Positions 18,821-46,804 of a stretch of 47,386 bases of DNA are shown piece after piece. The translations under genes were made by a program, and so were the position numbers. The DNA lies in IMG/VR virus record IMGVR_UViG_3300049218_000031, positions 1 to 47,386 of that record, one strand, 5' to 3'. Source of the stretch: a virus. Each line of letters begins with the position of its first letter. Position 1 is the first letter of the stretch. The notes below the pieces were generated by a model. The model did not search any database and was not told the origin of the DNA. It saw nothing but the letters and a program-made list of their open reading frames with translations.

Positions 18821-19043
18821 CACGAACCAAACGTCTTCCGAGTTCGCCGGCATCCCCGCGCCGCGGGCCGATCTAAATTCGCTGGTGGCGACGGCCAAGG
18901 CGACCCAGCAATGTGTCGAGGTGCTGAATGGTGCGCGGGGGTCCGGCGCCAGCAAGGCTGCGACCGCAGCAGACGTCGCCAAGCTGCAGACGCAAATTAC
19001 AACTCTGCAGGCACAGATCGCCGCGCTTCAGAGTCAATCATGA
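18810..19043 (+). CDS. Small coiled-coil protein (77 aa)
   Basis: ATG 18810 has GGAG 7 bases upstream within the end of the nozzle gene, and its TGA overlaps the next ATG. The first half is polar; the second half (about 45-77) is a regular heptad helix (VAKLQTQITTLQAQIAALQS), so it probably oligomerises. A minor tail protein or assembly chaperone is plausible. No family recognised. Confidence 0.65.
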   Translation: MPSNTNQTSSEFAGIPAPRADLNSLVATAKATQQCVEVLNGARGSGASKAATAADVAKLQTQITTLQAQIAALQSQS

Positions 19044-19474
19044 TTGAGTTCGGCAACGAGGGCCACGGGCATGAGATTATGGAAAGCTGCCATAGCCGGT
19101 TCGCCCCCCAGCTTCACACGGTAATTTCTCGCAGTGTGGGCGGTGTGCTTCTGGGCGGCGTTGTTTTCACCGACCATAATGAGCGGTCATGCCAGATGCA
19201 CCAGTGGGGCCGCACCAAACACTGGGGCTGCCCGGACATGCTTTGGGTGTGCTTCCACTACCCGCTCGTTCAGCTTGGCTATGATTGCGTGCTTGGGACG
19301 GTCCGTGAGGGAGACGGCAGCACGTACCGGATCAACCTGAAGTACGGGTTCGTTGAGGTCGCCAGGATCAAATCGGCCTGCCCTAGCGGCGCGCTGATTA
19401 TTATGCAAATGATGAAAGAGGATTGTCGCTGGCTTAGCCTCAAGCCTCGCCATATCCAGTACGGAGGGGTTTGA
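19040..19474 (+). CDS. GNAT-like acetyltransferase-fold protein of the virion cassette
   Basis: The start chosen is ATG 19040 (ATGA overlap), 144 residues. The order of elements resembles the GNAT fold: a strand pair with GGVVFTDHNE, a helix region with MLWVCFHYPLVQLGYDCVLG, then YRINLKYGFVEVARIKSACP, where GF-x-E-x-x-R is the usual acetyltransferase strand after the acetyl-CoA helix. The clear R/Q-x-x-G-x-G/A loop is not seen, so catalytic activity is uncertain. The end LIIMQMMKEDCRWL is shared by phage proteins encoded next to internal virion genes (the position of T7 gene 13). It may be a structural chaperone rather than an enzyme. Confidence 0.62.
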   Translation: MIEFGNEGHGHEIMESCHSRFAPQLHTVISRSVGGVLLGGVVFTDHNERSCQMHQWGRTKHWGCPDMLWVCFHYPLVQLGYDCVLGTVREGDGSTYRINLKYGFVEVARIKSACPSGALIIMQMMKEDCRWLSLKPRHIQYGGV

Positions 19475-19475
19475 T

Positions 19476-21167
19476 ATGGGTGGGTCTTCAGCGCCGGCGG
19501 CGCCGAATTATACGCCGATCGCCAACGCCGACGAGGCAGCAGCAAAGCTCCAGCAGCAGACGGCCAACCAGCAGCTTGGTTGGGCGCAGCAGCAGTTCGC
19601 CATCAACCAGAACGAAATACAGCCACTCATCAGTTCCGAGACACAGGCCGCGCAGACGCAGAACCAGAACGCGCAGGCTTCGTACAATCGGTACATCAAC
19701 ACCGAAGTACCTTTGCAGAACCAGTATCTTTCGGAAGCGAACCAGTATTCCAATCCAGCCTACGCAGCCCAGCAGGCGGGCACGGCGATCGCAAACACGG
19801 ACAGCGCCTACACCGGTGCGCGCAACCAGGAACAGCAGCAGCTAAATATGTACGGCGCCGATGCGGGTACTGCGCGGGCCGGCGCCATCAATTCAAACCT
19901 TGGCTCGCAGGAAGCGGCGGCAAAGGCGGCAGCGGGCACAAGCTCGGCGCAGAACACGCGGCTGACCGGCCTCAATTTGCAAGCCAATGCCGAAAACATG
20001 ATGTCGGGTTTGGCGGGGCAGTCCACCAGTGAGTACGGGGGCGCGAACTCCGCTGGCTCGACGGCATCGGGCAACGCGCTGGGGCTGACATCTTCCGGTG
20101 CTTCAACCGAAGGTACGTCCACCGAGTATTCGGGCCTCGCCGCCAACAGCCTTAACAATTGGGGCAACACGCTCTCGTCAGCGTACAATGCGCAGCTTGG
20201 TCAGTTCCAGGCCAACCAGCAGGCAAGCTCTGGCTTCGGCTCGGTGCTCGGCACGATCGGCGGCCTCGGCGCGGGCTTGTTCGAGGGTGCCGGCTACGCG
20301 CGTGGCGGCGGGGTGCTCCCCACCGGTTACGCGCATGGTGGCATGGCCATCCCGGACAATGTGTCTTATGCCCGCGGTGGCCCGATCACCCCGAAGGGCG
20401 CTGGCCGCGTGCCAACTTTCCACGTTTCAACCAACCAAGTCAAAGTGTTCCGTCCGCATCTGATGAAAGACAGCCACCCCCACACCTCGTCGGGGGTCGG
20501 CGCCGGTGGCACGCCGCGGATGAGCGCCAGCTTGAACGTGCGGGGGCTGGGCGGCGGTGCGGCGGGTGCCGCGCACGGCTCGAAAGGGCCAGGCGCGATG
20601 CCGATGAACATCGACAACAAGAACGGCGGCTTGCCCGGCGGTGGCACGATGGGAGGCGGCTATGGCGGCGGTGGCCCCTCGATGGCGCTGGCCGAAGGTG
20701 GGGCGATCCCGTCCAGCCAGACGGACCCCTACGGCCGCGCCGATAACATCCCGGTCTCGGCCAAGGCAGGCTCGTATGTCGTACCCAAGAGCGTGGTGGA
20801 CAAGCTGGGCACGCACCACCTGGATAAGATCGTGGCCAAAGAAGGTTCGCCAGAAGACCGCAAGGCGGCGCATCTGCGGTTGCAGGGGCTGGCGCATGGC
20901 GGCGGCGTCGGTGGTGGGCACACGCACATCTTGATGTCGGCGGGCGAGTACATGGTGCCCAAGAGCGTGGTGGACAAATTGGGCACGCATCACTTTGATA
21001 AACTCGTGGCCCAGCACGGCGACACCACCGACCGCCAGGCGGCGGAAGCGCGGCTTGCCGGCCAGCCTTCGGGTGCCGGCAACGGGCCGCCCATCCCCGC
21101 CAATCAACTCGCCGCTGCCGCGCCTGCGCGCGTGAAGCTCGGCGCCATACCGATGGGAGCCGGGTGA
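19476..21167 (+). CDS. Internal virion / ejection protein (T7 gp14-position)
   Basis: 563 residues, GGAGG before the ATG. Residues 1-250 are Gln/Asn/Ala-rich helix (QQLGWAQQQFAINQNEIQPL), typical of proteins injected with the DNA. Residues about 255-270 (GLGAGLFEGAGYARGGG) could touch membranes. The C-terminal 300 residues are Gly-rich and contain a duplicated unit: SYVVPKSVVDKLGTHHLDKI near residue 430 and EYMVPKSVVDKLGTHHFDKL near residue 490. It is first of three large genes in the order of the T7 core proteins. Role inferred from order and composition. Confidence 0.66.
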   Translation: MGGSSAPAAPNYTPIANADEAAAKLQQQTANQQLGWAQQQFAINQNEIQPLISSETQAAQTQNQNAQASYNRYINTEVPLQNQYLSEANQYSNPAYAAQQAGTAIANTDSAYTGARNQEQQQLNMYGADAGTARAGAINSNLGSQEAAAKAAAGTSSAQNTRLTGLNLQANAENMMSGLAGQSTSEYGGANSAGSTASGNALGLTSSGASTEGTSTEYSGLAANSLNNWGNTLSSAYNAQLGQFQANQQASSGFGSVLGTIGGLGAGLFEGAGYARGGGVLPTGYAHGGMAIPDNVSYARGGPITPKGAGRVPTFHVSTNQVKVFRPHLMKDSHPHTSSGVGAGGTPRMSASLNVRGLGGGAAGAAHGSKGPGAMPMNIDNKNGGLPGGGTMGGGYGGGGPSMALAEGGAIPSSQTDPYGRADNIPVSAKAGSYVVPKSVVDKLGTHHLDKIVAKEGSPEDRKAAHLRLQGLAHGGGVGGGHTHILMSAGEYMVPKSVVDKLGTHHFDKLVAQHGDTTDRQAAEARLAGQPSGAGNGPPIPANQLAAAAPARVKLGAIPMGAG

Positions 21168-21168
21168 T

Positions 21169-23094
21169 ATGTCGCTATCAGCAGACCTCCAGCAGTTCAG
21201 CGCGAATTTTCAGGGCGGGTACAACTCTGGCTCGGCGGCGAAGTATCGTGCCAGCATCGAGCAGATGCGGGCGGCGCTGGCGGCGCAAGGAAAAAGCGCT
21301 GCCACTGACGACCAGAACCTTACCTATGCCCGCTTCAGCGGCGCCGCCGAAGCGGGTAAAATACAGCCGGGCATGACAATCCCGGCGGGTGCCAACTATT
21401 GGGCCTCGCAGAACCTGCCACCCAACCAGTACCAGGCGATGCTAAAGGGTGAACAGACCGCTGGTTACACCCCGGCGCAGATTGCAGTGGGCAACCAGCA
21501 GGGCGTCGTCCCGATGCCGGCACCGGGCACGCAGCCGGCGGCTGACCCAGACGCGATGGGCACCAACATGACCGACTATCAGATGAGCCAGCCGCCGGGG
21601 CAGGCTAAGGGCGGCGTCGTGCCGATGCGGCGCTATGCGTCCGGTGGCCCGATTGACCCGGACGTGGCGGCAGCGGTTGCGCAATCCAACGGCCAGCCGA
21701 ATGCACCCAGCCCCGGCGGGGCCGCGGCGCCATCCCAGGGCGTGCTGCCGACAGCCCCGGCGCCTGCTCAAGCCGCTTCCGCGATGGCGCCCGCCGACAT
21801 CAAGATGGCGCCCGCCGACATCTTGATGTCGGCGCCGGCGCCCCCAGCACCACCAGCTCAGGCCGCCACCGCGGCACCTCCAGGCGGCATGGCGCCGATG
21901 CACCCGGCTGGCCTTCAGCCCCCAGCGAACATCGACAAACCACTGCCGGTCCCTGCCGGTGCCGTGCAGGCGGGCACGCCAGCCGCTTCCGCGATGGCGC
22001 ACGCCCGCATCGCGATGGGTCTACACCCGGCGCAGAACCCAGGTGCTAACCCGCAACAGTCCGCGGCGAATTACACCGAGCTTCAGCATGGCGCCGGGGC
22101 GGCATCGAACCAGCAGGTGCATGATTTTCGCACGGCGGTGGCCGGGCCGAACGCTTCGAGCGAGCCGCTGGGCATCCAGAATGCCAGCCTGCTCAACAAC
22201 CTCTACAACTACGATCTCGAATTTCACGGCCCGCAGCAGGCGGCAGCCGATGCGTTTGGCGTGCTTCAGAACTACCGTATCAACATGCAGATGTACGGCG
22301 GCGCGGCGCTGTCGGCGTTCCAGTCCGGCAACCTAAAAGCTGCCGCCGACTACATGAAGATGGGCTATGCGTTTTTCCCTGACGGCAATGATGTCAATGT
22401 CACGCCGGGACCAAAGAACAGTTTGATCGCCACGCGCATCGGTCCAGATGGCAAGGTACTGGACACCAGCACGTTCACCAGCCCGTCCGATTTGAAAAAC
22501 TTCTTGCTCGCGTCAACGAGCTTCGAGGGCTACAACACCATGCTGGCGCAGGAGCAAGACACCGCGATCAAAGGCGCGGTGGCCGGTGCGCACATCAACC
22601 TGGAGAATACCGAGGCCAGCGATAACAGCGCGCGGACTGGTGCCTATGTCGCCGACACCAGTGACGAGATCAGCGACCGCGACCAGACAACCGCCGATGA
22701 TAACAAGCGCACGGCCTACACCACAAGTGATAAGGGTCCAAAGGCGCCGACCGCGGAGCAGTTTGCCAGCTATCAGGCCGCGCTCACCACGCAGCTTAAC
22801 GGCAACCTCGGCACCTCGATCGGGTTTGATCGCGCGCCGCCGGCGGCGCAAACCAGGCTTGTGTCACTTGCGACGAGCATCGGCTTGGCGAACAATCTCG
22901 ACCCGTCAACCTCCGCGCAGATCGGCGGCTATGTCATGCAGAACCCCGGCATCGTGAAGAACGGCACGGTCACGCTGCGCGGTCAGACCTTCCAGATCGG
23001 TAACATCGGGACGCAAATGCTGGCGCCCCCGCAAGGTAAAGCGACCGGCGGCGCGGTGTCGCCGGCGGCGCGGGCGATGGCGGACCTGCCCTGA
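21169..23094 (+). CDS. Internal virion / ejection protein (T7 gp15-position)
   Basis: 641 residues starting one base after the previous stop. Residues 1-90 are helical; about 100-300 are a Pro/Ala/Met-rich linker encoded by repetitive DNA, including a 15-bp inverted repeat (21792-21834). The C-terminal 340 residues are mixed helix and strand (LLNNLYNYDLEFHGPQQAAA, YRINMQMYGGAALSAFQSGN) and end in short repeats of S/T-rich segments. The start of the giant gene overlaps its stop (TGATG). Position between gp14-like and gp16-like genes suggests a core or channel protein. No known domain is visible. Confidence 0.62.
   Translation: MSLSADLQQFSANFQGGYNSGSAAKYRASIEQMRAALAAQGKSAATDDQNLTYARFSGAAEAGKIQPGMTIPAGANYWASQNLPPNQYQAMLKGEQTAGYTPAQIAVGNQQGVVPMPAPGTQPAADPDAMGTNMTDYQMSQPPGQAKGGVVPMRRYASGGPIDPDVAAAVAQSNGQPNAPSPGGAAAPSQGVLPTAPAPAQAASAMAPADIKMAPADILMSAPAPPAPPAQAATAAPPGGMAPMHPAGLQPPANIDKPLPVPAGAVQAGTPAASAMAHARIAMGLHPAQNPGANPQQSAANYTELQHGAGAASNQQVHDFRTAVAGPNASSEPLGIQNASLLNNLYNYDLEFHGPQQAAADAFGVLQNYRINMQMYGGAALSAFQSGNLKAAADYMKMGYAFFPDGNDVNVTPGPKNSLIATRIGPDGKVLDTSTFTSPSDLKNFLLASTSFEGYNTMLAQEQDTAIKGAVAGAHINLENTEASDNSARTGAYVADTSDEISDRDQTTADDNKRTAYTTSDKGPKAPTAEQFASYQAALTTQLNGNLGTSIGFDRAPPAAQTRLVSLATSIGLANNLDPSTSAQIGGYVMQNPGIVKNGTVTLRGQTFQIGNIGTQMLAPPQGKATGGAVSPAARAMADLP
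21792..21834. repeat. 15-bp perfect inverted repeat in the gp15-position gene
   Basis: CGCCGACATCAAGAT (21792-21806) and its reverse complement ATCTTGATGTCGGCG (21820-21834) are separated by 13 bases that themselves repeat GCGCCCGCCGAC. The right-arm sequence occurs again near 20928 in the preceding gene. The coding result is the repeated peptide MAPADIK-MAPADIL. Confidence 0.85.
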
Positions 23095-26000
23095 TGCCCC
23101 CGGACGGGAGCACCAGCGGCTGGTCGGGCTTCAACACGATCTACGACACCGCGCCGCCGACCCAGCCGGTTACTCCGCAGAGTAACGAGGCACCAGGCGG
23201 CTGGTCGGGCTTCAGCACGATCTACGACACCGCGCCGCCGGCCCAGCCGGTTACTCCGCAGAGTAAGCCAGCCGGTCAGGGCATCCTGCAGACCGCGCAT
23301 GACCTCGCCTATGGTATGGCCGCTAATGGCGTGGACCTCGGCAAGACAGGCGTGGGGCTGCTCCAGCTTGTCGCCCGGCCAGATACCAACGCACCAGCCG
23401 TCCCGGCGCGGGCTAAACCAACCGGCTTGCCGGTCAACACACCCGACTTCACGCCGCCGCCGGAGCCGGTGAACCCACTCGGCACGACGCCCCAGCAGAT
23501 CGCCGCCGGCCAGCAAACAAAAGCGCAAGAAGCTGCCAGCTTGTTGGGGTTGCAGCAGCGGTTGTCGAACACCGAGCAGGGGCTGACCAACCAGATCAGC
23601 CCGGAGGGCCAGGCCGAGCTTAACTCGTCGCTCAACCCGCTCGCCAAAGACAGCGCCTACACCCACCCCTTGGTGCAGACCGCGCTCCTCAAAGCCGGAA
23701 GCCAACTGCCGACGTTGCTGGCGGCCCTCATTCCCGGCACTTTCGCCGCCAAGATCGCGGCGCGCGGCATCGAGGCCGCGGCAGCCACGGGGGCTGCGAC
23801 CAACGCGGGCTTGAGCGCCGGGTCGGTGATGAGTGCTGCGTCTGACGTGGTGAACCAAACAACCGATGCCGATATGCGCAACCCGCGGAGCGCGCTCTAC
23901 AACCCGACCTATGCCGCGTTGCGCGCCAAGGGCACGCCGGTGGGCCAGGCCAAGGCAGCCCTGGTGGACAAGATCACCGGCGTGCTGCCGCTCGTCGCCG
24001 GCGCCGTGGGCGCGATGGCGGGGAACATCAGCGGTGGCACTGTCGCCCGGCTGGTGGGTAAGGGCGCGACCGACACGCTGCTACGACGCGCCGCCAGCGA
24101 GGGCCTGGCGAACGCCGCCGGCGGCGCGGCCATGATGGGGTCGACGACGGCAGCCGCCGATCAGTCCGCCGCCAACATCAACGGCAGCAGGGCCGACTGG
24201 CATGACGTGCTGATGCAGTCGGCCAAAGGCGCGTTCCTCGGCATGTCAATGGGTAGCCTGGTGGGCGCGCTATCACGGCACGCGCCGGAGGTGCTGGCCA
24301 AGGGCAGCGCCGAGCACGTCGCGACACCGGAGGGTGCGGCGGTGAACGCGGCCACCCATGCGGATATGGGGACGACGCCGGGTGCAGCACCCGCACCGCC
24401 GCCCAACATGGACGAGGAAGTGCCAGAGGATTACTACGATCATCACGGAGACGAGGATGAGGAACCAGCGCCGGCCAAGCCCCAGCAACCAAACGCCGCG
24501 CAAGCCGACGATCAAAAGCCAGCGACACCAGCAGGAGTTGATGAGGCTCAGGCTTCAGCAATCCGGGCAGCCACGGAACCAGCGGAAACGAAACTCGTTA
24601 CCCCTGCCGAAGCAACGGTTGCCCCAGCCGCCGTTGAAAAAATAGCCGCGCTCGCGCCGGCTCCCTCGGCGCCGAAGCCGTACATCATGCCCTTCGAGGG
24701 GTTGCATGACCCGGTGCCGGTGGCCAAGCCGGCGGATGTCGAAGCTGCCACCAAGCTGATCACGAGCCGGGCGGCGCGGATGCTGCGGGCGATGCCGGGC
24801 GTGTCATCTTCCGAGGAAGGCGCTGTCTCGCATATCGTAAACAACCTGGTCGCCCAGGCGCACGCGGAGTTGCCGTACCATGACGGCCCACCGGTGGAGA
24901 TGGTGAAACAGTTCGCCGCCACGAAGCCCCTGCAAGACCGCATCGGCGCGGCACTGTCGGACTATCGGAACCAGCGTGACGAGGCGGTGCGTGCGCCTGA
25001 TGCCGAGCCGGAAGCCTATGGTCCGGCAGCCGTGGACACCAGCGAGGCGGCGGCGCAGTCGCGCGTGCGCAGTCAAGACCTCTACAAGCCAGGCAACGAG
25101 GGCGAGCTTCTAAGCCGGATCAACGACAACGAAAGCAACACCACCACCTATGCCCGCGCCAAGGCGATGGTGGCGGAGCGCGGCGGCGCGGCGCACCCGG
25201 TCTACCAGGACGTTCTGGACCTGAACAAAGGCCGCGGCGGGGATAACAGGTTCAAGCAAATCCGGCTCGACCGCGCCCGCGGCGCCGAGCGCGCCTATCT
25301 GAAGGCCGAGGCCGAGCGCCACGACAACGAGCGGCCGCCAGCGGAGCATGAACTGCTTCAGCAGGAGCCGCCGCCGCTTGGCCGCGAGCGTGATGATGCG
25401 TTCTGGGCGCGGGTGCAGCGCGCCGTGAGGCGCGGCGAGGATGCTGGCACACCGATGCCGAGGGGGAGTTTTCTCTATCGAGCGGCCAAGGCGCTGGATG
25501 GTGTGCGTGCTGATCGCGGCCCTGATGCGCTGCCGGATAAAGTGCTCACGGCAAAAATGCGCAACGATGAGTTTCTGGCGCGCGCCAACGAGCCAGGGCT
25601 GGCGAACAACAAAGACATCGACACGCTTGGCCACGTCTCGCTCTCAGGCAGAGACGCGGCGCATGAAGACGATGACGAACCCACGGAGCTATACAAGCGC
25701 GACGGCGCCGCGCCCGAACCCTTGAACGTGAAAAGCACCAACGCCCGCAATGACCCCAGCCGCGTCAAGCGCGGCGCCGAGGCGATGACCGGGCGGCTGC
25801 GGTTGCAGCAGGGGCTGAACAAAGATGCCGGCATCCACTCCGATGACATCCGCGATGTTGAAGACTTCCTGCACTTCCTTGGGCCGCATCTGACCAAGGA
25901 TACCGGGCTGTCCGTGCGGGCGAACGCGGGCGAGGGTGTGCACGGCATGTTTGACCCGAAGACGCGCATCGTGAACATATACAAAAAAACGATTGCCGAT

Positions 26001-29000
26001 GGTGAGCTTACCCGCACTGCCGTGCACGAGCTTTGGCATAGTGTGGAGACCGCGCTGACGCTTCGCGACAAGATTGCTTTGCGTAAGGAGTACGCCAAGC
26101 AATATGCCAAATTCATAACCAAAAAACCCTGGATGGAAAACTTTGGCGCGGCACAGAAAGACGGCACGCGCGGGTTGAACGATGTGCTGACTGGCAAGAA
26201 CGCGCAGGATTTTGTTGCGCGTTACGGCGGCAATGAATCAATCATGGACCAAGTGCGTGTGACCGGCGCGTATGATAAACCAGTTGTCTCGCTGATCCCC
26301 ACCACCGAGAATTATCGTTTCTTTAACTGGCATGAATACTTTGCCGAGACGATGAGCGATAAGTATTTCAAGATGCGAGACCTGGAAGACGAGCGGGTGC
26401 GCTCGATCGTGGGGCACTTGCGCAGCTTCATACAGGTAATCAAGAGCCGCATCGCGCGGCTGTTCGGCGGCGACGTGAGCGGACGCATCTATGAGGGCTT
26501 CGCCAACAAACAATTCTCGCACCGGCAAGAAGCACTGCAAGCCTACGACGCGATCCAGTTTGCGCGCCAGCTACGCAACAACCCGAAAAATATCATCCAG
26601 GGGGTGCAACCTTCGTTGTACGATCCGGTGGCGAAAGCCATCCGCGATGCGTTCAACTCCAACACGACGCCGATGAACATGGTGCGCAGCGGGCTGGCTC
26701 ATCTGGCCAGCGGGCAAGACCTGGCCCGCGCCGGCGAGAAGCTGTTCGATTGGACGCCGACGACGCGCACCGGCACCGAAAGCACCGAGCCGCCGAGCCA
26801 CACATTTCAGAACGCGCTCAACCACATGGCGACCCACGCCCAGCATTTTGCGGACAAATATGCAGGCGTGCAGCACACGCTGCTCCGCTACATGGCAAAG
26901 GCGAAGCCAGACGATGCCGCCAACTTCTCGGAAGTGATGGCGCACTCGACCCACTACAACTACGACCCGGCGCGGGCGCCCAACAGCAAAGCCAAACCAA
27001 AAACGGCGACTGCCGTGCAGCGGCTTGAGCGGCACCGAGAGGGGCACGCCAATTTCAAAAAGCTAAGCCCCGAAGCGCAACACACGTTAAAGCTGGTGCG
27101 CGACGCGCTGCACAAGGCGCGCTACGAGGTGGCCGAGGAAGCCGTGCGTGCGACGATCACCGAAGCGCACCAGGGCAAGATGCGCGAGGCGCTGGCCGGC
27201 AACACGCTGGTGCATCCCGGCACGACCTTGCGGATCGACCGCGGCGAGATCGAGCGCCAGACACAACGGTATATGAACCGTGCCGAGACCGATGCGGACA
27301 AAGATTTCTTTGGTGGTGCGGTCCATAAAATCCTGAACACCCAACGGCGTGCGCCGTTCCAGCATGAAAATTATTTTCCAGAACGCCGCTACGGCACACA
27401 TGCTGTAGAGTATTGGGACCAACGGCCAGAAGAACACTCGTTCAGTAACGAGCAGGACATGCTCGACTTCGCGAAGAACACCGACCTCTACATTAAAGGA
27501 AGCTCGACCAAGCATTTTGATGCCGCCGGCAACGAGATTGACAAAGACGATCCGGCGGCACCGCCGATTGCGCGTTCCGAGTACGTGGCGCGGACCCAGA
27601 ACCACGGCCTGGAATTTTTTGACACCCCGGCCAAGGCGAAGGCCCGTGTTGCGGAGCTACGCAACCACCCGGCAAACAAATACAAAGTGCACGACGCGGC
27701 GCACACCAACCGCAGCTTGCAGTCCGCGAACAATATCAGCCCCGCCATGTTGGGGGTTTTGAAGTCCGCGCTGGGCAAAACCGCCCAGGATGGCAATGAC
27801 ATGGCCGCGATCGACCATGCGCTGAACGAGGCCATCGTCAATTTGCTGCCGCCAAACTCGGTGCGGTATGGTGCGCTGCGCCGGCGCAATGTCATGGGCG
27901 CGTCCAAGGACACGCTGCGCGTGGTGCATGATTATTTCCTGGGCGCAGCCAACACCGTGGGCCGACTGAAATATGGCGGCGAGGCGGACAACGCGCTCCT
28001 CGCGATGCACGAGCACACCGAAGCGATGAAGGACGCCAATGACGGCATGACGCATGTGCGGCAGGAATTGGTGAAGGCAGCCGACTTGCGCCGCAAAGTA
28101 AGCCCGCTCGACATCGGCACCAGTTCAAAAGCTCTAAACTTTATCCGCGTGGCCCAGCAATACGCCTTCGTTAACTACATGACGACCGCCGCGTTTAATA
28201 TGGTGCAGTTGGCCCAGCCGTGGATGACCGGGATGCCGTATCTGGGGGCACGTTATGGCATCGTGGCGGCGAACCGAGAGATGGGCAAAGCTCTGGCGCG
28301 GCTTGGCTTCGGCGGCGGCGTCATCAAGGAAGGCGCGATGCAGGAGTACAACGCGATCCGCAACGCGGTCAGCAAAGACTTCAAGACGAACGGGGATTAT
28401 GTCAGCATCATCAAGGCGCGGCTGGCCCGGATAGCCAGCACGCCGGCGGAGAAGGCACTGGCGGCGGAGCATAGCGCGATGCTGGACAAGCTCTCCAACG
28501 ACAGCGCCCTGGGTCACAGTGGTGCCGGGCTGCAGGTCCGCCAGATGCTGACGATGCCGGGCAAGTCCGTGGCGTCACGCGCCCTGCACGCCGCCGAGGA
28601 GGCCACCCGCGCGATGCCGACCGCGATCGAGGTGGCCAACCGGGCCATGCTGGGCATCGCCACCTACGAACTCCACAAGGCCAAGACCGGCGACAAAGAC
28701 CTGGCCTACCAGGAAGCGCGCAAGGCGATCAAGGAAACGCAGGCAGATTACGGCGCTCCGAACGCGCCGCTGATCATGCAGGGCAGCCGCCACCCGTACC
28801 TGTCGCCATTCTTCACGTTCAAAAAATATGCCCAGATGATCTACAGCCTCATCGGCACCCACCTGTACCAGTGGTTCGCTGGCGAGGATAAAGAGACCCG
28901 CCGGATCGCCCGTCGCACGATGGCCAACACGCTGTTCATGCACGCGATGGTGACGGGGATGCACGGCTTGCCGATCGGTGTGGTGCTGACCACCGCCGCG

Positions 29001-29783
29001 GTTGTCTCGCTGCTTCTGGGTGAGGATAAGAGTTTCAACTATGACCAGTGGCTGCACGAGATGGGCGGCAAGCTAGGGCTGACACCCAAAGAGATCGACG
29101 TGTTCGCCAACGGCCTGCCGACGATGGCTGGCGTAAACGCCACGGGCCGCATGGGCTTGTCATCGCTGGTGCTGGACGACGCGCCGACCGAAAACGATTG
29201 GGGTGGCTGGACGCAATGGGTGGGCGACCAGTTGCTTGGTGCGCCCGGCCAGGTGCTAGGAGAAATACCGCAGGCCATGTCGAACATCCGCCACGGAAAT
29301 TTCGACAAGGCTGCGATCAACCTAATGCCAGCGGCCATCCGGGACAAGCTGCGCGCTATCAACTACGCAGAGCACGGTATCGTTAATAACGAAGGCGACC
29401 AGCTTGCGCCGCCGCTGCCGTGGAACCAGGTGCTCGGCCAGGCGTTGGGCTGGGAGCCAGACACCGTGGAGGAAACCTACGCCGCCCGCGATGCCGGCCT
29501 TGCCGCCAAGGACACCTACCGCCAGGGACGGGCGACGGTGCTCGAGCAATTCAGCGCGCAGTACGCGGCGGGGGACTATGCCGGCGCGCAGCAGACGCTT
29601 TCTGCCTACAACGCGACGGTCCCAGGCAGCGTGAAAATAAATTTCTCGACGGCGCTGAAGTACATGCGCACGACTGACAAGGCGGTGAGGTCCGGCCTCA
29701 TCGGCAGCATGGGCTTCACGAAGAAAGAGGGCTACCTCGCGACGCCGATGGGCAACTACAACCTGCCGCAGCAAGCCCCGTAA
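23094..29783 (+). CDS. Giant ejection protein with HExxH metallopeptidase-like domain (gp16-position)
   Basis: 2229 residues, TGATG-coupled to the previous gene, the last and largest of the internal virion set. Residues 8-62 are a tandem 27-residue repeat. About 200-400 contain Gly/Ala-rich membrane-prone helices (QLPTLLAALIPGTFAAKIAA, ITGVLPLVAGAVGAMAGNIS). Residues 978-982 are HELWH, followed by NWHEYFAETM (Glu1081 and Glu1085), the arrangement of a gluzincin-type zinc protease. A long helical region follows. Near the C-terminus YLSPFFTFKKYAQMIYSLIG and MHGLPIGVVLTTAAVVSLLL are hydrophobic. It is probably injected to form an envelope channel. The protease could cut host or virion proteins; activity is unproven. 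Confidence 0.72.
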   Translation: MPPDGSTSGWSGFNTIYDTAPPTQPVTPQSNEAPGGWSGFSTIYDTAPPAQPVTPQSKPAGQGILQTAHDLAYGMAANGVDLGKTGVGLLQLVARPDTNAPAVPARAKPTGLPVNTPDFTPPPEPVNPLGTTPQQIAAGQQTKAQEAASLLGLQQRLSNTEQGLTNQISPEGQAELNSSLNPLAKDSAYTHPLVQTALLKAGSQLPTLLAALIPGTFAAKIAARGIEAAAATGAATNAGLSAGSVMSAASDVVNQTTDADMRNPRSALYNPTYAALRAKGTPVGQAKAALVDKITGVLPLVAGAVGAMAGNISGGTVARLVGKGATDTLLRRAASEGLANAAGGAAMMGSTTAAADQSAANINGSRADWHDVLMQSAKGAFLGMSMGSLVGALSRHAPEVLAKGSAEHVATPEGAAVNAATHADMGTTPGAAPAPPPNMDEEVPEDYYDHHGDEDEEPAPAKPQQPNAAQADDQKPATPAGVDEAQASAIRAATEPAETKLVTPAEATVAPAAVEKIAALAPAPSAPKPYIMPFEGLHDPVPVAKPADVEAATKLITSRAARMLRAMPGVSSSEEGAVSHIVNNLVAQAHAELPYHDGPPVEMVKQFAATKPLQDRIGAALSDYRNQRDEAVRAPDAEPEAYGPAAVDTSEAAAQSRVRSQDLYKPGNEGELLSRINDNESNTTTYARAKAMVAERGGAAHPVYQDVLDLNKGRGGDNRFKQIRLDRARGAERAYLKAEAERHDNERPPAEHELLQQEPPPLGRERDDAFWARVQRAVRRGEDAGTPMPRGSFLYRAAKALDGVRADRGPDALPDKVLTAKMRNDEFLARANEPGLANNKDIDTLGHVSLSGRDAAHEDDDEPTELYKRDGAAPEPLNVKSTNARNDPSRVKRGAEAMTGRLRLQQGLNKDAGIHSDDIRDVEDFLHFLGPHLTKDTGLSVRANAGEGVHGMFDPKTRIVNIYKKTIADGELTRTAVHELWHSVETALTLRDKIALRKEYAKQYAKFITKKPWMENFGAAQKDGTRGLNDVLTGKNAQDFVARYGGNESIMDQVRVTGAYDKPVVSLIPTTENYRFFNWHEYFAETMSDKYFKMRDLEDERVRSIVGHLRSFIQVIKSRIARLFGGDVSGRIYEGFANKQFSHRQEALQAYDAIQFARQLRNNPKNIIQGVQPSLYDPVAKAIRDAFNSNTTPMNMVRSGLAHLASGQDLARAGEKLFDWTPTTRTGTESTEPPSHTFQNALNHMATHAQHFADKYAGVQHTLLRYMAKAKPDDAANFSEVMAHSTHYNYDPARAPNSKAKPKTATAVQRLERHREGHANFKKLSPEAQHTLKLVRDALHKARYEVAEEAVRATITEAHQGKMREALAGNTLVHPGTTLRIDRGEIERQTQRYMNRAETDADKDFFGGAVHKILNTQRRAPFQHENYFPERRYGTHAVEYWDQRPEEHSFSNEQDMLDFAKNTDLYIKGSSTKHFDAAGNEIDKDDPAAPPIARSEYVARTQNHGLEFFDTPAKAKARVAELRNHPANKYKVHDAAHTNRSLQSANNISPAMLGVLKSALGKTAQDGNDMAAIDHALNEAIVNLLPPNSVRYGALRRRNVMGASKDTLRVVHDYFLGAANTVGRLKYGGEADNALLAMHEHTEAMKDANDGMTHVRQELVKAADLRRKVSPLDIGTSSKALNFIRVAQQYAFVNYMTTAAFNMVQLAQPWMTGMPYLGARYGIVAANREMGKALARLGFGGGVIKEGAMQEYNAIRNAVSKDFKTNGDYVSIIKARLARIASTPAEKALAAEHSAMLDKLSNDSALGHSGAGLQVRQMLTMPGKSVASRALHAAEEATRAMPTAIEVANRAMLGIATYELHKAKTGDKDLAYQEARKAIKETQADYGAPNAPLIMQGSRHPYLSPFFTFKKYAQMIYSLIGTHLYQWFAGEDKETRRIARRTMANTLFMHAMVTGMHGLPIGVVLTTAAVVSLLLGEDKSFNYDQWLHEMGGKLGLTPKEIDVFANGLPTMAGVNATGRMGLSSLVLDDAPTENDWGGWTQWVGDQLLGAPGQVLGEIPQAMSNIRHGNFDKAAINLMPAAIRDKLRAINYAEHGIVNNEGDQLAPPLPWNQVLGQALGWEPDTVEETYAARDAGLAAKDTYRQGRATVLEQFSAQYAAGDYAGAQQTLSAYNATVPGSVKINFSTALKYMRTTDKAVRSGLIGSMGFTKKEGYLATPMGNYNLPQQAP
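23170..23185. repeat. Palindrome TTACTC-CGCA-GAGTAA, copy 2
   Basis: Perfect arms; in frame as V-T-P-Q-S-N. Flanks match the copy in the scaffold gene at 4295. Confidence 0.85.
23251..23266. repeat. Palindrome TTACTC-CGCA-GAGTAA, copy 3
   Basis: Perfect arms; in frame as V-T-P-Q-S-K, in the second unit of the 81-bp tandem repeat. Right flank AAGCC matches the copy near 37285. Confidence 0.85.
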
Positions 29784-36623: not shown

Positions 36624-37322
36624 TTACGTTCCGTGATGCGGGCAGACTTTGACAGGACACCAGCGCCGACAAAGCCCGCTCGGCGATGCCGGGAACACGC
36701 CATCAACCGTGGCTTGCTCCATCCTCGTGACCCGCGGCTGAAAGGCTTGGATCATCGGCATGATCCGGTCGCGATAGTACGTGTCACCGGTGCGCTCATG
36801 CGTCTTCAGCCAGCCGAACTCCGTGCGCACCGCCTGAAGTTTCGGGTAGTGGATGAACATCGCCAGGGCGGTAAGCAGCAACTGCGGGCTGTCCTCGACC
36901 CTCTTGCCGGTCTTCCAGTCGATCGCGAAGCCGACCGGCCCGTTTAGCACTGCCAGATCAACCACCACCCGCAGGTACGCATCCTTGCCGAACCAGGTGG
37001 TCTTCTGCATCGTCCGGGTGACGGCAAGCTGCTGCTCGACCAGCACCTCGGCGTCCGGCTTCGCCGCCAGGATGTCCAGGACACGCTGCGCGTCGGCGGC
37101 GTAGGGGAAGTCCGGCGGATAGGTGCCGGTAATGACCGCGCGCTCCATCTGTTTATGGACCGTTTGGCCCCAGGCCATCTCCTCGCTCTCCGGCTCTACG
37201 AAGTCCTTCAGAACCAGCGTGTGTAGGTATTTCTTCGGGCAACTCTCGAATGTCTTAAGCCGGCTGTACGAGTAGCTGAAGGGCTTACTCTGCGGAGTAA
37301 CCCGGCTTGGTGCATCACTCAT
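36624..37322 (-). CDS. Cas4/RecB-like PD-(D/E)XK exonuclease with Fe-S cysteines
   Basis: Start ATG 37322 (ATGA overlap with the Ntn-hydrolase stop), 232 residues. Motifs: SYSRLKTFESCPKKY with Cys28; GQTVHKQMER with His56; VVVDLAV (Asp122); GFAIDWKTGK (Asp135, Lys137); and a C-terminal Cys218-x3-Cys222-x4-Cys227 cluster. With Cys28 these four cysteines fit the Fe-S site of Cas4/AddB-type nucleases. It probably resects DNA ends during phage recombination. It is not a CRISPR gene here, as no other Cas gene or array is near. Residues VTPQSK (8-13) are encoded by a perfect palindrome copy. Confidence 0.82.
   Translation of the reverse strand: MSDAPSRVTPQSKPFSYSYSRLKTFESCPKKYLHTLVLKDFVEPESEEMAWGQTVHKQMERAVITGTYPPDFPYAADAQRVLDILAAKPDAEVLVEQQLAVTRTMQKTTWFGKDAYLRVVVDLAVLNGPVGFAIDWKTGKRVEDSPQLLLTALAMFIHYPKLQAVRTEFGWLKTHERTGDTYYRDRIMPMIQAFQPRVTRMEQATVDGVFPASPSGLCRRWCPVKVCPHHGT
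37285..37300. repeat. Palindrome TTACTC-CGCA-GAGTAA (minus strand), copy 5
   Basis: Perfect arms; the 16-mer on the minus strand is identical to the copies at 4295, 23170 and 23251. It lies at codons 8-13 of the Cas4-like nuclease and is again read V-T-P-Q-S-K, before the first conserved motif. Confidence 0.85.
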
Positions 37323-37783
37323 GGCTTGCAAAATTTCAGCACCCACTCCCAGGTGCGCGTGTCAAAAGCTGTGCACGTTCCGCCAGCCCAAACGCATTGC
37401 TTTATCGCCAGGTGCACGGCATTGATCGCCGATCCGCCTTGGGCCATGACACCCATGAGGAACCCGCATTCGGCGCCATCGACCACCGGGGTGCCGTACT
37501 GGCTGACATCGTAGAGCGCCATCGTCTCTCCGCACTTGAAGACACGACCATCGCGGTAGATAATAACGGCACCGAAGTTTTCACTCTTGGCCGGCCGGCG
37601 GAAATCACCGAACGCAACACCGGCCCACTCTTCAAATGCCGCCACCTCTGGCACCGCCCCGCAGGCCGACCAGCAAAACTCATCGTTGACCCTGATCTTG
37701 TTCTGGTGGCCGACGATAATGCCGGACATGAACGTTGCGGTGTCGGCTGCGAAAATGCCCTCTTTGAAAGCAATGACTGTCAC
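37319..37783 (-). CDS. Proteasome/HslV-like Ntn hydrolase
   Basis: The start is GTG 37783, with AAGGAG 6-8 bases upstream, giving 154 residues beginning M-T-V-I-A-F. After methionine removal Thr becomes the N-terminal nucleophile. The spacing Thr1 ... AADTAT (Asp13) ... NKI (Lys28) mirrors the Thr/Asp/Lys catalytic triad of HslV and proteasome beta subunits. The middle and end (MGVMAQGGSAINAVHLAIKQ, WAGGTCTAFDT) fit the family's helices and closing strands. No ATPase partner (HslU-like) is seen nearby. It may be an assembled protease, or use a host unfoldase. First gene after the att region and ATGA-coupled to the Cas4-like nuclease. Confidence 0.72.
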   Translation of the reverse strand: MTVIAFKEGIFAADTATFMSGIIVGHQNKIRVNDEFCWSACGAVPEVAAFEEWAGVAFGDFRRPAKSENFGAVIIYRDGRVFKCGETMALYDVSQYGTPVVDGAECGFLMGVMAQGGSAINAVHLAIKQCVWAGGTCTAFDTRTWEWVLKFCKP

Positions 37784-37894
37784 GTTAACTCTCCTTGAAA
37801 TAACTGGTTGCAAACAAACCACATTTCGATCAACCTAAAGTGGCTGACGGAAATGCTTGTTATATTTCAAGTGCTTGTGGGCGCTGCAAGTTAT
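37784..37894. promoter_or_regulatory. Control region between integrase and Ntn-hydrolase genes
   Basis: This gap contains TGCTTGT at 37854-37860 and again at 37872-37878 (18-bp spacing), with a related AGCTTGT at 37904-37910 inside the att core. These are candidate integrase arm sites. CCACATTT...CTAAAGTGG (about 37820-37842) is an imperfect inverted repeat. A promoter for the leftward nuclease block must lie here, but I see no convincing -35/-10 pair. Confidence 0.45.

Positions 37895-43342: not shown

Positions 43343-43346
<4 letters not shown>
43077..43346 (-). CDS. Small phage protein of a shared short family (89 aa)
   Basis: The start chosen is ATG 43346, which overlaps the Gly-X gene stop as ATGA. 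After a short N-terminus it reads DLYAYFVLFTTRKKHLRW, then YNFYVSAANDEAALITARAK, then ARIVKVEVTKG: strand, strand, helix, strand. The ANDEAALITAR helix resembles [14 protein letters not shown] at 43800 and EADDKASAMIMFKM at 45046, so these small proteins may be related. No known domain; perhaps regulators that bind host proteins. Confidence 0.6.
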
Positions 43347-43799
<453 letters not shown>

Positions 43800-43828
<29 letters not shown>

Positions 43829-44045
43829 CTGGCGCCTCCTCGATCTGGTCCGCGGCAAAGGCGATGCGCGCTGTGCGAACGCCGTGCGCGATAACCATTT
43901 TTATGTCCGCAGCGCTGCCATCTTGTGCCAACCACACACGGGCTTTGAACGCGGCGTCCTCGTCGTTCTTAGCGGTAAAAGATCGCATCACACGCTGGCC
44001 ATCAGATTTTACCATGATGACGGCGTGGGTTGGTTGTTTGTCCAT
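43800..44045 (-). CDS. Small phage protein, AxxDEDAA-type helix (81 aa)
   Basis: The start chosen is ATG 44045, preceded by a GGGGG about 13 bases upstream (weak). It reads [20 protein letters not shown], then [17 protein letters not shown], then [18 protein letters not shown]: a strand-helix-strand plan like the proteins at 43077 and 45046. Its end overlaps the Gly-X gene start by 29 bp. No known family. Confidence 0.6.
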
Positions 44046-44100
44046 AATAATAATAACCCCCTTGCGCTGCCAGGCTGAAACAGTATTCAGCGACCTATAT

Positions 44101-45024
44101 TCAGTACCCCATTCCAGCGAGAATAGATGCCGCCTTAGCTCTTGCTGCGTCACGCCGCTCCCGCGACCCGCGCAAGCTCTCAGGATTGAGGTCGCTTGCA
44201 AGCTCGACAACCTCGTTGACATGGCGCGTTGTCCCTTCATCATTCAAAACATTCAGTGACGGCAGCAGTTGCGCCAAATCGGTGATATTAGTCACCGTGG
44301 TGTCGCGGAACACACCCTGCAAATCTCGCTGCCCTTCGGTCTTCTCGCGGCTCTCGCGCTCATCGAACGCATCCAACCGCTCGACCAGATGCTGCAACGG
44401 TTTGACCATCCGCTCCTGGATTTCGCCGAGTGCCGTCTCATAGGCCGTCTGCGCGCGGTTCTGCATGTGCTGCGCCAGCTTGCCGGTGATGGCGGGCGGC
44501 AGGTTTTTCAGCGCCTTGGTGTCGGGGATGGACCCGAACTCCAGCTTCACCTCGTAGGCGTTGGACAACTCCTCGACCGTGGGCAACGCGATCTCCAGCG
44601 CCAAGTCGCCGAGGTTGCGCTTGGCAGCCTCGATGATCTCCGGCGCCTTGGCGCGGTACTCCTCGATGCAGAGCGCGATCTCGCGCTGCAGCGGCGCCAT
44701 GATGCCGGCCAGCTTGAGGAAGCTGGTGTTCGGCAGCAGTCGCCACCCGCCGGCGCCGTCCCAGGGAAGCGTGTGCGCCTCGTAGATTTTGCGCATGTTG
44801 TTCTGCAAGCCGACCAGCTTGCGGTGATACGCATCGGCATCGGCCAGCCGGTTCACCCGCACCGTTGCCGCGTTTGTCGTGGCGCCGTGCTGCGCCGTGA
44901 CCTGGGTGCTGGCAGTTTTGTGGGTGCGGCTCAGCCCCAGCGCGCGGGTGCGCAAGCCGCACAACATGGCAGTGTCCTGCAACGCGGCAATCAGATCAGT
45001 CTTGGTGTCGGTATCATCGAGCAT
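44101..45024 (-). CDS. Hypothetical partner of the VWA module (307 aa)
   Basis: ATG 45024 with GGAG 7 bases upstream, inside the palindrome copy at 45026-45041. The product is largely helical: a DNA-free N-terminus (DDTDTKTDLIAALQDTAMLC), then VRVNRLADADAYHRKLVGLQ, MRKIYEAHTLPWDG, and a long helix region with ERMVKPLQHLVERLDAFDER. It resembles DUF3150-type proteins, which commonly occur beside MoxR ATPase and VWA proteins in phages. The VWA gene at 45500 fits that context. Function is unknown; an adaptor or substrate of the VWA/ATPase machine is plausible. Confidence 0.6.
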   Translation of the reverse strand: MLDDTDTKTDLIAALQDTAMLCGLRTRALGLSRTHKTASTQVTAQHGATTNAATVRVNRLADADAYHRKLVGLQNNMRKIYEAHTLPWDGAGGWRLLPNTSFLKLAGIMAPLQREIALCIEEYRAKAPEIIEAAKRNLGDLALEIALPTVEELSNAYEVKLEFGSIPDTKALKNLPPAITGKLAQHMQNRAQTAYETALGEIQERMVKPLQHLVERLDAFDERESREKTEGQRDLQGVFRDTTVTNITDLAQLLPSLNVLNDEGTTRHVNEVVELASDLNPESLRGSRERRDAARAKAASILAGMGY

Positions 45025-45285: not shown

Positions 45286-45500
45286 TCTGGCCACCCTTCA
45301 GTGTCTTCAAAAACCACCTCCCATCTTGTCGTAGCCCAAGACCACACGCTCAGCTTCAGCAGCTTGTCGTGCCACGTGTTTTTGTCGCGTACTTTTATGA
45401 GCGCGTCAGCGAAGTCTTCCGCGATCACGTTCATGCCATCGTAGGCATGAACACCGCCGTGAAAACGCGGATGGTACACGGTGTCGATATTGCTTGCCAT
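45282..45500 (-). CDS. Small phage protein (72 aa)
   Basis: The start chosen is ATG 45500, which overlaps the VWA gene stop as TGATG. It has VYHPRFHGGVHAYDGMNVIA, then EDFADALIKVRDKNTWHDKL, then LSVWSWATTRWEVVFED, again helix flanked by strands. Tight coupling ties its production to the VWA protein. Function unknown. Confidence 0.6.
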   Translation of the reverse strand: MASNIDTVYHPRFHGGVHAYDGMNVIAEDFADALIKVRDKNTWHDKLLKLSVWSWATTRWEVVFEDTEGWPE

Positions 45501-46804
45501 CACACTTCCACCTTCACCACTTCACCCCACGGGCAGGAGTTTCGACCGCCCGGAATGATTGCCCAGATGACCGGATAGGCCGGCGGGTGGTCGGGGAACG
45601 AGCCATAGCCGTCCGTGAGATAGACCAGACAGTCCGGCACGATACCCAACTCGTCCAGCTTCCTGAACGCCGGCTCGAAGCACGTGCCACCACCGCCGAC
45701 CGCGCGCCTGCAGGCTTCCGCCGCGTCTATATCGGTGGGGTTATCCAACTCGATAACCTGATGCACCTTGGCGTCGCAGTCGATCACGAAGGCCCGCTCC
45801 GGCATCGCCTGCTCGAAGACGCCGGCCATGCAGCCGCCCATGATGTTCATCTCACGCTGGCCCACTGACCCGGAGGTGTCACGCACCAGCACCGCCGTGC
45901 CCACGCCTCGGCCGGCGCGGCGCGGCGTGTAAACCGGATCGTTGAAGATGAGCATGACCGGGTCGGGAGATTTCCAGTCATGGTCCCCGCCGCCGATGTT
46001 GCGCACCACCAGCGCCGCCATCCGGTCCTTCCAGTCCACCTTCGGCTCGATAAGCTCGCTCACCAGCCGCTTGAGCGCGTCCGGCACGGTGCCACGCGCC
46101 TTCGCCACGGCAAGCGCCTGGTTGATCGCCTGCTGCATCTCAGCCTGCTGCTCCTTGGCTTGCGCGACGGCCTGCTGGGGTGTCTGGCCATCACCGGCGC
46201 CGGGGGGCAGGTGATGGTCGAAGCCGCCGGGGTTGTTGCCCGGTTGGGTGCCGCGCTGGCCACCACCTTGCCCCTGGCCGGGCGGCTGCTGGCCAGCGCC
46301 GTTTCGACCGCCGCCCTGCTGGTTCTGTTTCCGCCGCGCGTACTCCTCGGCATACACACCCACCCAGCTTTCACCGCCTTTGATCCGCGGGTTGAAGTGG
46401 CCCTCCGGCGGGTGCTTACCGATGCCGCACTCGTCCAAGAAGGAATTGATCACCCAATCCTGGACCTCGTTGACCAGTTGATGATCGACCGGCAGCACGC
46501 CGGTCGGCCCGAAGATACCGTCGCGCATGATATAGCCCTGCTGACAGTGCTCCCACATCACGTGGCACACTTCATGGCACAACACGTAGAGGCGCTGCTG
46601 CAAGGTCCATTTCGCGAATTGCTCGGGGTTTAGCCAGATGTTCTTGCCATCCGTCGCGGCGAAGGGCACGTCGCGTGTCGGCGTGAGCGTGCACTGGTCC
46701 AAGAGCAAGTGGCTGAAGAAAGGCTGCGCCCACATGATGCCGGCGCGCAATTCAGTCAGCGCACTGGCTTCGTCTTTGGTAAGGTCGGTTGCTTTTGCGA
46801 ACAT
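45500..46804 (-). CDS. HExxH metallopeptidase-like plus VWA domain protein
   Basis: 434 residues; GGAG 6 bases before the ATG. N-terminal part: YVLCHEVCHVMWEH with His77, Glu78 and His81 as a zinc-binding HExxH. A Gly/Gln-rich linker spans residues 160-205. C-terminal part: a VWA-like domain with a complete MIDAS, DTSGS (Asp309, Ser311, Ser313), Thr374 (GGGGTCF) and Asp398 (YLTDGYG). This is the DUF2201 architecture that normally works with a MoxR-type AAA ATPase, which would lie upstream, outside the window. It may remodel or cut a host target. Domain calls are firm; biological role is open. Confidence 0.82.
   Translation of the reverse strand: MFAKATDLTKDEASALTELRAGIMWAQPFFSHLLLDQCTLTPTRDVPFAATDGKNIWLNPEQFAKWTLQQRLYVLCHEVCHVMWEHCQQGYIMRDGIFGPTGVLPVDHQLVNEVQDWVINSFLDECGIGKHPPEGHFNPRIKGGESWVGVYAEEYARRKQNQQGGGRNGAGQQPPGQGQGGGQRGTQPGNNPGGFDHHLPPGAGDGQTPQQAVAQAKEQQAEMQQAINQALAVAKARGTVPDALKRLVSELIEPKVDWKDRMAALVVRNIGGGDHDWKSPDPVMLIFNDPVYTPRRAGRGVGTAVLVRDTSGSVGQREMNIMGGCMAGVFEQAMPERAFVIDCDAKVHQVIELDNPTDIDAAEACRRAVGGGGTCFEPAFRKLDELGIVPDCLVYLTDGYGSFPDHPPAYPVIWAIIPGGRNSCPWGEVVKVEV

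Follow-up and report, generated by a model that had tools for sequence, protein, structure and literature searches.

Zincin Domains in Giant Phage Proteins

Among the domains of polyvalent proteins, zincin metallopeptidases (MPTases) are the most widespread, with 12 clades; in phages, polyvalent proteins are encoded near virion genes, and their MPTases were proposed to serve either in self-processing or in host targeting (Iyer et al. 2017, PMC5512222). The giant RNA polymerase ejected by phage N4 contains a HExxH zincin-like domain, C1 (PMC12633501), and mass spectrometry of the virion detected gp69 of phage JC1, annotated as a DarB-like giant (PMC9144972).

The window analysed here is an entire virus record of 47,386 bases. 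Reading of the open frame confirms the 2229-residue ORF that the initial annotation had placed at 23094..29783 (+), and matches of its C-terminal part, together with a relative of 61% identity (L014), point to a giant virion (ejection/polyvalent) protein gene. A zincin domain in an injected phage giant is an already known type, of which the window protein is a good new example. With the polyvalent MPTases (Iyer et al. 2017, PMC5512222) it shares the HExxH helix and a second helix with the ligand Glu, both predicted, as well as the position of the giant gene beside virion genes and a putative LPD domain after the zincin. It differs in that HExxH and the predicted ligand Glu lie about 100 residues apart, in having no Pfam MPTase-PolyVal match, and in containing few other recognised domains. 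The C1 domain of the N4 virion RNA polymerase is likewise a HExxH zincin-like domain within an ejected podoviral giant (PMC12633501, PMC5512222), but an RNA polymerase domain as in N4 finds no match in the window protein (Pfam, PHROGs). The likeness to JC1 gp69 is drawn via the DarB-like annotation, and the virion evidence belongs to JC1 gp69.

The DarB-like podovirus giants of PEp14, LASTA, POI1126, Atu_ph08 and PBC5 share with the window protein a homologous C-terminal stretch of 600–700 residues, LPD39 (divergent in the window protein) upstream of it, and a zincin (or a JAMM domain) in the same slot. DarB-like giants are mostly 3000–5000 aa long and contain a methylase-helicase dyad, which is absent from the window protein (Pfam), and several carry an N-terminal peptidoglycan hydrolase, which the window protein apparently lacks. 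The giants of RHph_TM29 (Rhizobium) and Rollin (Pseudomonas) resemble it in size (2184–2328 aa) and in the order of zincin and C-terminal region, but differ in their motifs (HEATH...EEFVAE in TM29, which also has an InPase domain, and HEMGH...EEVLAD in Rollin) and are only about 25% identical. By position, the window protein is comparable to T7 gp16: in both cases the largest of the internal protein genes comes last. The initial annotation had assigned the ejection protein to the position of T7 gp16, and this stands for gene position only; no homology to T7 gp16 is detectable in the window protein (Pfam, PHROGs).

Gene Neighbourhood and Architecture of the Giant Protein

The window encodes a podoviral head-tail adaptor/portal (phrog_332), a major head protein (phrog_267) and an internal virion protein (phrog_511), as well as a GH108 endolysin, an integrase, a DNA polymerase and a primase/helicase. 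Judged by this gene content, the virus is a temperate podovirus. A rightward late block ends with the giant gene, and the next gene lies on the opposite strand. The giant gene is preceded by the gene for a virion structural protein of phrog_8003 (19476..21167, +; PHROGs) and then by the gene for a 641-aa protein without a family match (21169..23094, +), placed by its position; these would be the first and second members of a putative ejection-protein trio. The ATG start of the giant ORF shares one base with the stop codon of the upstream gene (TGATG), and its translation is therefore probably coupled to that of the upstream gene. L014 shows the same gene order, with genes of 716, 738 and 2232 aa, the one in place of the 641-aa protein being of similar size. 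In RHph_TM29, an N-acyltransferase gene and two further genes annotated without a function lie upstream of the giant gene, as in the window. This synteny supports the labelling of the giant protein, by gene position, as an internal or ejection protein, and the location beside virion genes that is typical of phage polyvalent proteins is present. The acyl-CoA N-acyltransferase of the window (phrog_4470; 18911-19474, +) is encoded within the late operon, and RHph_TM29 and Atu_ph08 likewise have N-acyltransferase genes close to their giant genes.

Only the zincin, LPD39 and a C-terminal region are recognised in the giant protein, whereas its relatives carry many more domains. LPD39 is the sole Pfam match of the whole ORF: the divergent domain at residues 1239–1364 (26808..27185, +) matches PF18858 with E=4.5e-4 and 20.4 bits, under the curated cut-off of 27. 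This match is weak in L014 too, and strong in most other relatives, where it lies upstream of the C-terminal region. The C-terminal region common to the giants (residues 1459–2200; 27468..29693, +) matches phrog_37402 with E=1.3e-67 (PHROGs) and the giant DarB-like protein of TM29 with E=6e-41. Further matches are found in giants of Rhizobium, Agrobacterium, Ochrobactrum, Pseudomonas, Klebsiella, Erwinia and Vibrio phages, several of them annotated as 'DarB-like antirestriction' or 'PLxRFG'. Towards the N-terminus, a Gly/Ala-rich region (residues 200–400; 23691..24293, +) is 75–83% identical to L014, with a dN of 0.14 compared with 0.34 for the whole protein, and is thus conserved to the same degree as the block that contains the HELWH motif. 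It includes a hydrophobic segment at residues 294–312 (hydropathy) and is possibly a membrane-active part of the protein.

The HELWH Motif and Its Probable Zinc Ligands

The initial annotation had pointed to HELWH at residues 978–982 and to WHEYFAE about 100 residues later, and both are present in the translation, at 26025..26039 (+) and, as residues 1079–1085, at 26328-26348 (+). HELWH, which is aligned in relatives and kept in L014, contains two putative zinc-ligand His residues and the putative catalytic Glu979. No other HExxH occurs in the giant protein, and a shuffled copy would be expected to contain 0.11; by itself, this single occurrence is suggestive only, and the comparison with relatives decides. 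Among 89 related phage giants in which LPD39 could be mapped, HExxH is found within the 400 aa upstream of LPD39 in 50, where shuffles expect 0.8 and the remainder of the same proteins contains 0.014 per 400 aa, although many of these giants are closely related to each other and the counts are not independent events. Several distinct motif types occur across well-separated branches of the tree built from the C-terminal region. Because of the excess in the slot before LPD39 (50 versus 0.8), HELWH in the giant protein is, on this comparison, not a chance occurrence.

An unguided MAFFT alignment, for which sequences were chosen solely by having HExxH, places Glu opposite Glu1081 (codon 26334..26336, +) in 43 of 46 relatives and opposite Glu1085 (codon 26346..26348, +) in seven. 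Of these two residues, between which the initial annotation had left the third ligand open, Glu1081 is for this reason the likely one, while Glu1085 was rejected for its poor conservation. His1080 was rejected as a ligand as well, being Asn in L014. In alignment A7 (34 sequences), the sole invariant positions are H978, E979, H982, E1081 and A1084, although identity in the slot is 11–18% outside L014. L014 itself retains both HELWH and EYFAE, and residues 900–1000 are about 80% identical between the two proteins and among their most conserved parts. With a dN of 0.15 compared with 0.34 overall, this block is, by sequence comparison, under purifying selection. Conservation of HELWH in relatives, on which the proposed zinc-protease centre depended, was thus checked and found.

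A profile scan of viral contigs with an alignment of the giants revealed 80 further loci, and a scan with the alignment of window and TM29 proteins revealed L014. A single-protein scan for relatives of the giant protein found none. Since two genome-contig scans found no relative either, the nearest group is rare and consists of the window protein and L014 only; in the C-terminal tree, TM29 groups with these two. Jumbo phages such as BRkr, indicated as relatives of the domain by weak tblastn matches, were rejected because the matched protein has no HExxH.

Predicted Fold of the Domain

The zincin (gluzincin-type) metallopeptidase domain was delimited to about residues 905–1115 (25806..26438, +) by alignment A7, an AlphaFold2 model and Foldseek. 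The model, calculated on A7 for residues 885–1175, is of moderate confidence (mean pLDDT 71, core 79–91, pTM 0.59). It consists of a helix, three strands, a HExxH helix (88–103 in segment numbering) and a Glu helix (195–212), and HELWH and Glu1081 are located on these two predicted helices, respectively. The first four PDB matches in Foldseek are all minigluzincins (selecase, abylysin, jannalysin), with probabilities of 0.96–0.98 for the two best, E-values of 0.12–0.2 and an rmsd of 2.9 Å over about 70 residues, while IrrE, Wss1 and CapP rank lower. Minigluzincins differ from the window domain in being small stand-alone archaeal proteins, the E-values are weak, and the similarity is one of predicted fold. 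Among viral models, the best matches are phage giants without names (E down to 7e-7); SprT-like and polyvalent-protein entries are found further down. The support for a gluzincin-type zincin fold in this model is good but not decisive. The gluzincin-like zinc protease centre of the initial annotation is thus supported by conservation and by a predicted fold that, at moderate confidence, is of the zincin type and does not refute it. In Pfam, neither MPTase-PolyVal (PF18818) nor any other peptidase family matches the window protein, and PF18818 is matched by one of 34 relatives (E=0.073). The best PDB sequence matches of the domain profile, mTOR FRB chains, were rejected as chance similarity.

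Exchange of Metalloprotease Motifs Upstream of LPD39

In a slot of 460 aa before LPD39, the 89 relatives contain HExxH (53 proteins), HNHPx5SxxD (28), HExxxH (five) or neither (three). The HNHPx5SxxD motif belongs to a predicted JAMM/MPN-fold domain, which replaces the zincin in L018 (4035-4739, +) and in 27 other relatives. This domain is not recognised by Pfam; its AlphaFold2 model is confident (pLDDT 91), and the PDB entry that matches the model best is PfJAMM1, a JAMM deubiquitinase homologue (probability 0.97, E 0.055). Deaminases, whose wider fold is the same, are also among the matches. RadC/JAB (JAMM) domains were described only in polyvalent proteins of conjugative elements and not in those of phages, with a leaning towards nucleic-acid substrates (Iyer et al. 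2017, PMC5512222). HExxxH forms (HELGGH, HEAIGH) occupy the slot in L045, L054, L062, L090 and Vibrio phage douglas 12A4 (L009), and zincins with a comparable four-residue spacing are included in the same survey (Iyer et al. 2017, PMC5512222).

Relatives without HExxH are found mainly in one clade of the C-terminal tree, with at least four state changes in all, a count that was made before the HExxxH forms were recognised. As two unrelated metalloprotease folds exchange in one position, this hints that activity, rather than fold, is selected in the slot. It is tentatively conceivable, though doubtful, that the slot serves as a dedicated socket for metalloproteases, where the zincin forms HExxH and HExxxH and the JAMM form HNHPx5SxxD replace each other. 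If this were true, the phage would need the peptidase or isopeptidase activity itself on entry, and the targets would perhaps belong to bacterial antiphage pathways with protease or ubiquitin-like steps.

Possible Function of the Domain

The motif, its conservation and position, and the predicted zincin fold are the established part. The giant protein would be a compact member of the phage polyvalent (DarB-like) virion proteins that is expressed late, presumably packaged into the head and delivered by ejection together with the DNA. In its zincin, at residues ~905–1115, His978, His982 and Glu1081 would bind one zinc, and Glu979 would activate a water molecule, allowing a peptide bond to be cut. 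In the newly infected cell, the domain may then cleave a host protein, and we can only guess at a defence, envelope or regulatory protein, for example, as the substrate. A delivered zinc endopeptidase that acts in the infected cell, most likely on a host protein, is the preferred reading, with a probability of roughly 0.55.

A serious but less probable alternative is that the zincin cuts its own polypeptide or neighbouring proteins, in the head or just after ejection, and so releases the N-terminal, LPD39 and C-terminal portions as separate working units. The initial annotation had suggested that envelope or host proteins are cut, rather than or besides peptidoglycan, and self-processing has equal standing in the literature. 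It was proposed as a main role of the MPTases, and processing of P1 DdrB precedes its packaging (Iyer et al. 2017, PMC5512222); the mid-protein position of the window domain, which separates the N-terminal half from LPD39 and the C-terminal region, would suit such a role. However, the same study also lists host targeting, and the N4 virion RNA polymerase, ArdC and TraC1 carry domains of this kind and are delivered unprocessed (PMC5512222). Because neither the window protein nor L014 contains another recognised effector domain that self-cleavage could release (Pfam), a host target is somewhat likelier; the evidence leans only slightly in this direction, as the two options are not separable from sequence, and releasable domains could be hidden in residues 1–900.

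An improbable alternative is a role in envelope crossing, by which the domain would cut peptidoglycan cross-links or a periplasmic protein and replace the missing transglycosylase. The initial annotation had noted that no transglycosylase signature is obvious, and this is borne out by Pfam on the whole giant ORF: no lytic transglycosylase or SLT domain is found in the giant protein (Pfam, PHROGs), and no muralytic domain in the two upstream virion genes (Pfam), whereas the giants of LASTA and PEp14 (SLT) and of POI1126 (Hydrolase_2 and M15_3) have N-terminal peptidoglycan hydrolases. These three proteins, however, combine a separate muralytic N-terminal domain with a zincin, and because both domains coexist there, the zincin is, judged by domain content, not a replacement for a muralytic enzyme in these phages. 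The fold matches are also to zincins that act on proteins or in regulation. It is very improbable that the zincin fold is catalytically inactive or serves a structural role only. The moderate model confidence, the occurrence of HExxH-like strings in non-proteases and the mTOR FRB matches of the profile might point that way, but all four catalytic and ligand residues are kept in a slot of otherwise so little identity, and the motif recurs there alongside several other types of motif.

The window protein offers a small representative of the widespread zincins of injected phage giants, for which no biochemistry was found in the literature. Its 2229 aa and few recognised domains make it a cleaner test case than giants of 4000–5000 aa for the question of whether the carrier or the host is cleaved, and the exchange of zincin and JAMM domains in relatives provides a comparative handle on the same question.

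Other Genes in the Window

A second predicted metallopeptidase gene is located at 45500-46804 (-). Its product combines DUF2201_N with a VWA-like DUF2201 and contains a HEVCH motif, and its family is labelled as HNH endonuclease in PHROGs. A protein of the HslV-like peptidase family (phrog_1040) is encoded at 37319-37822 (-). A long Arg-Leu repeat frame at ~43345-44259, a low-complexity DNA repeat, adjoins genes without assigned function.
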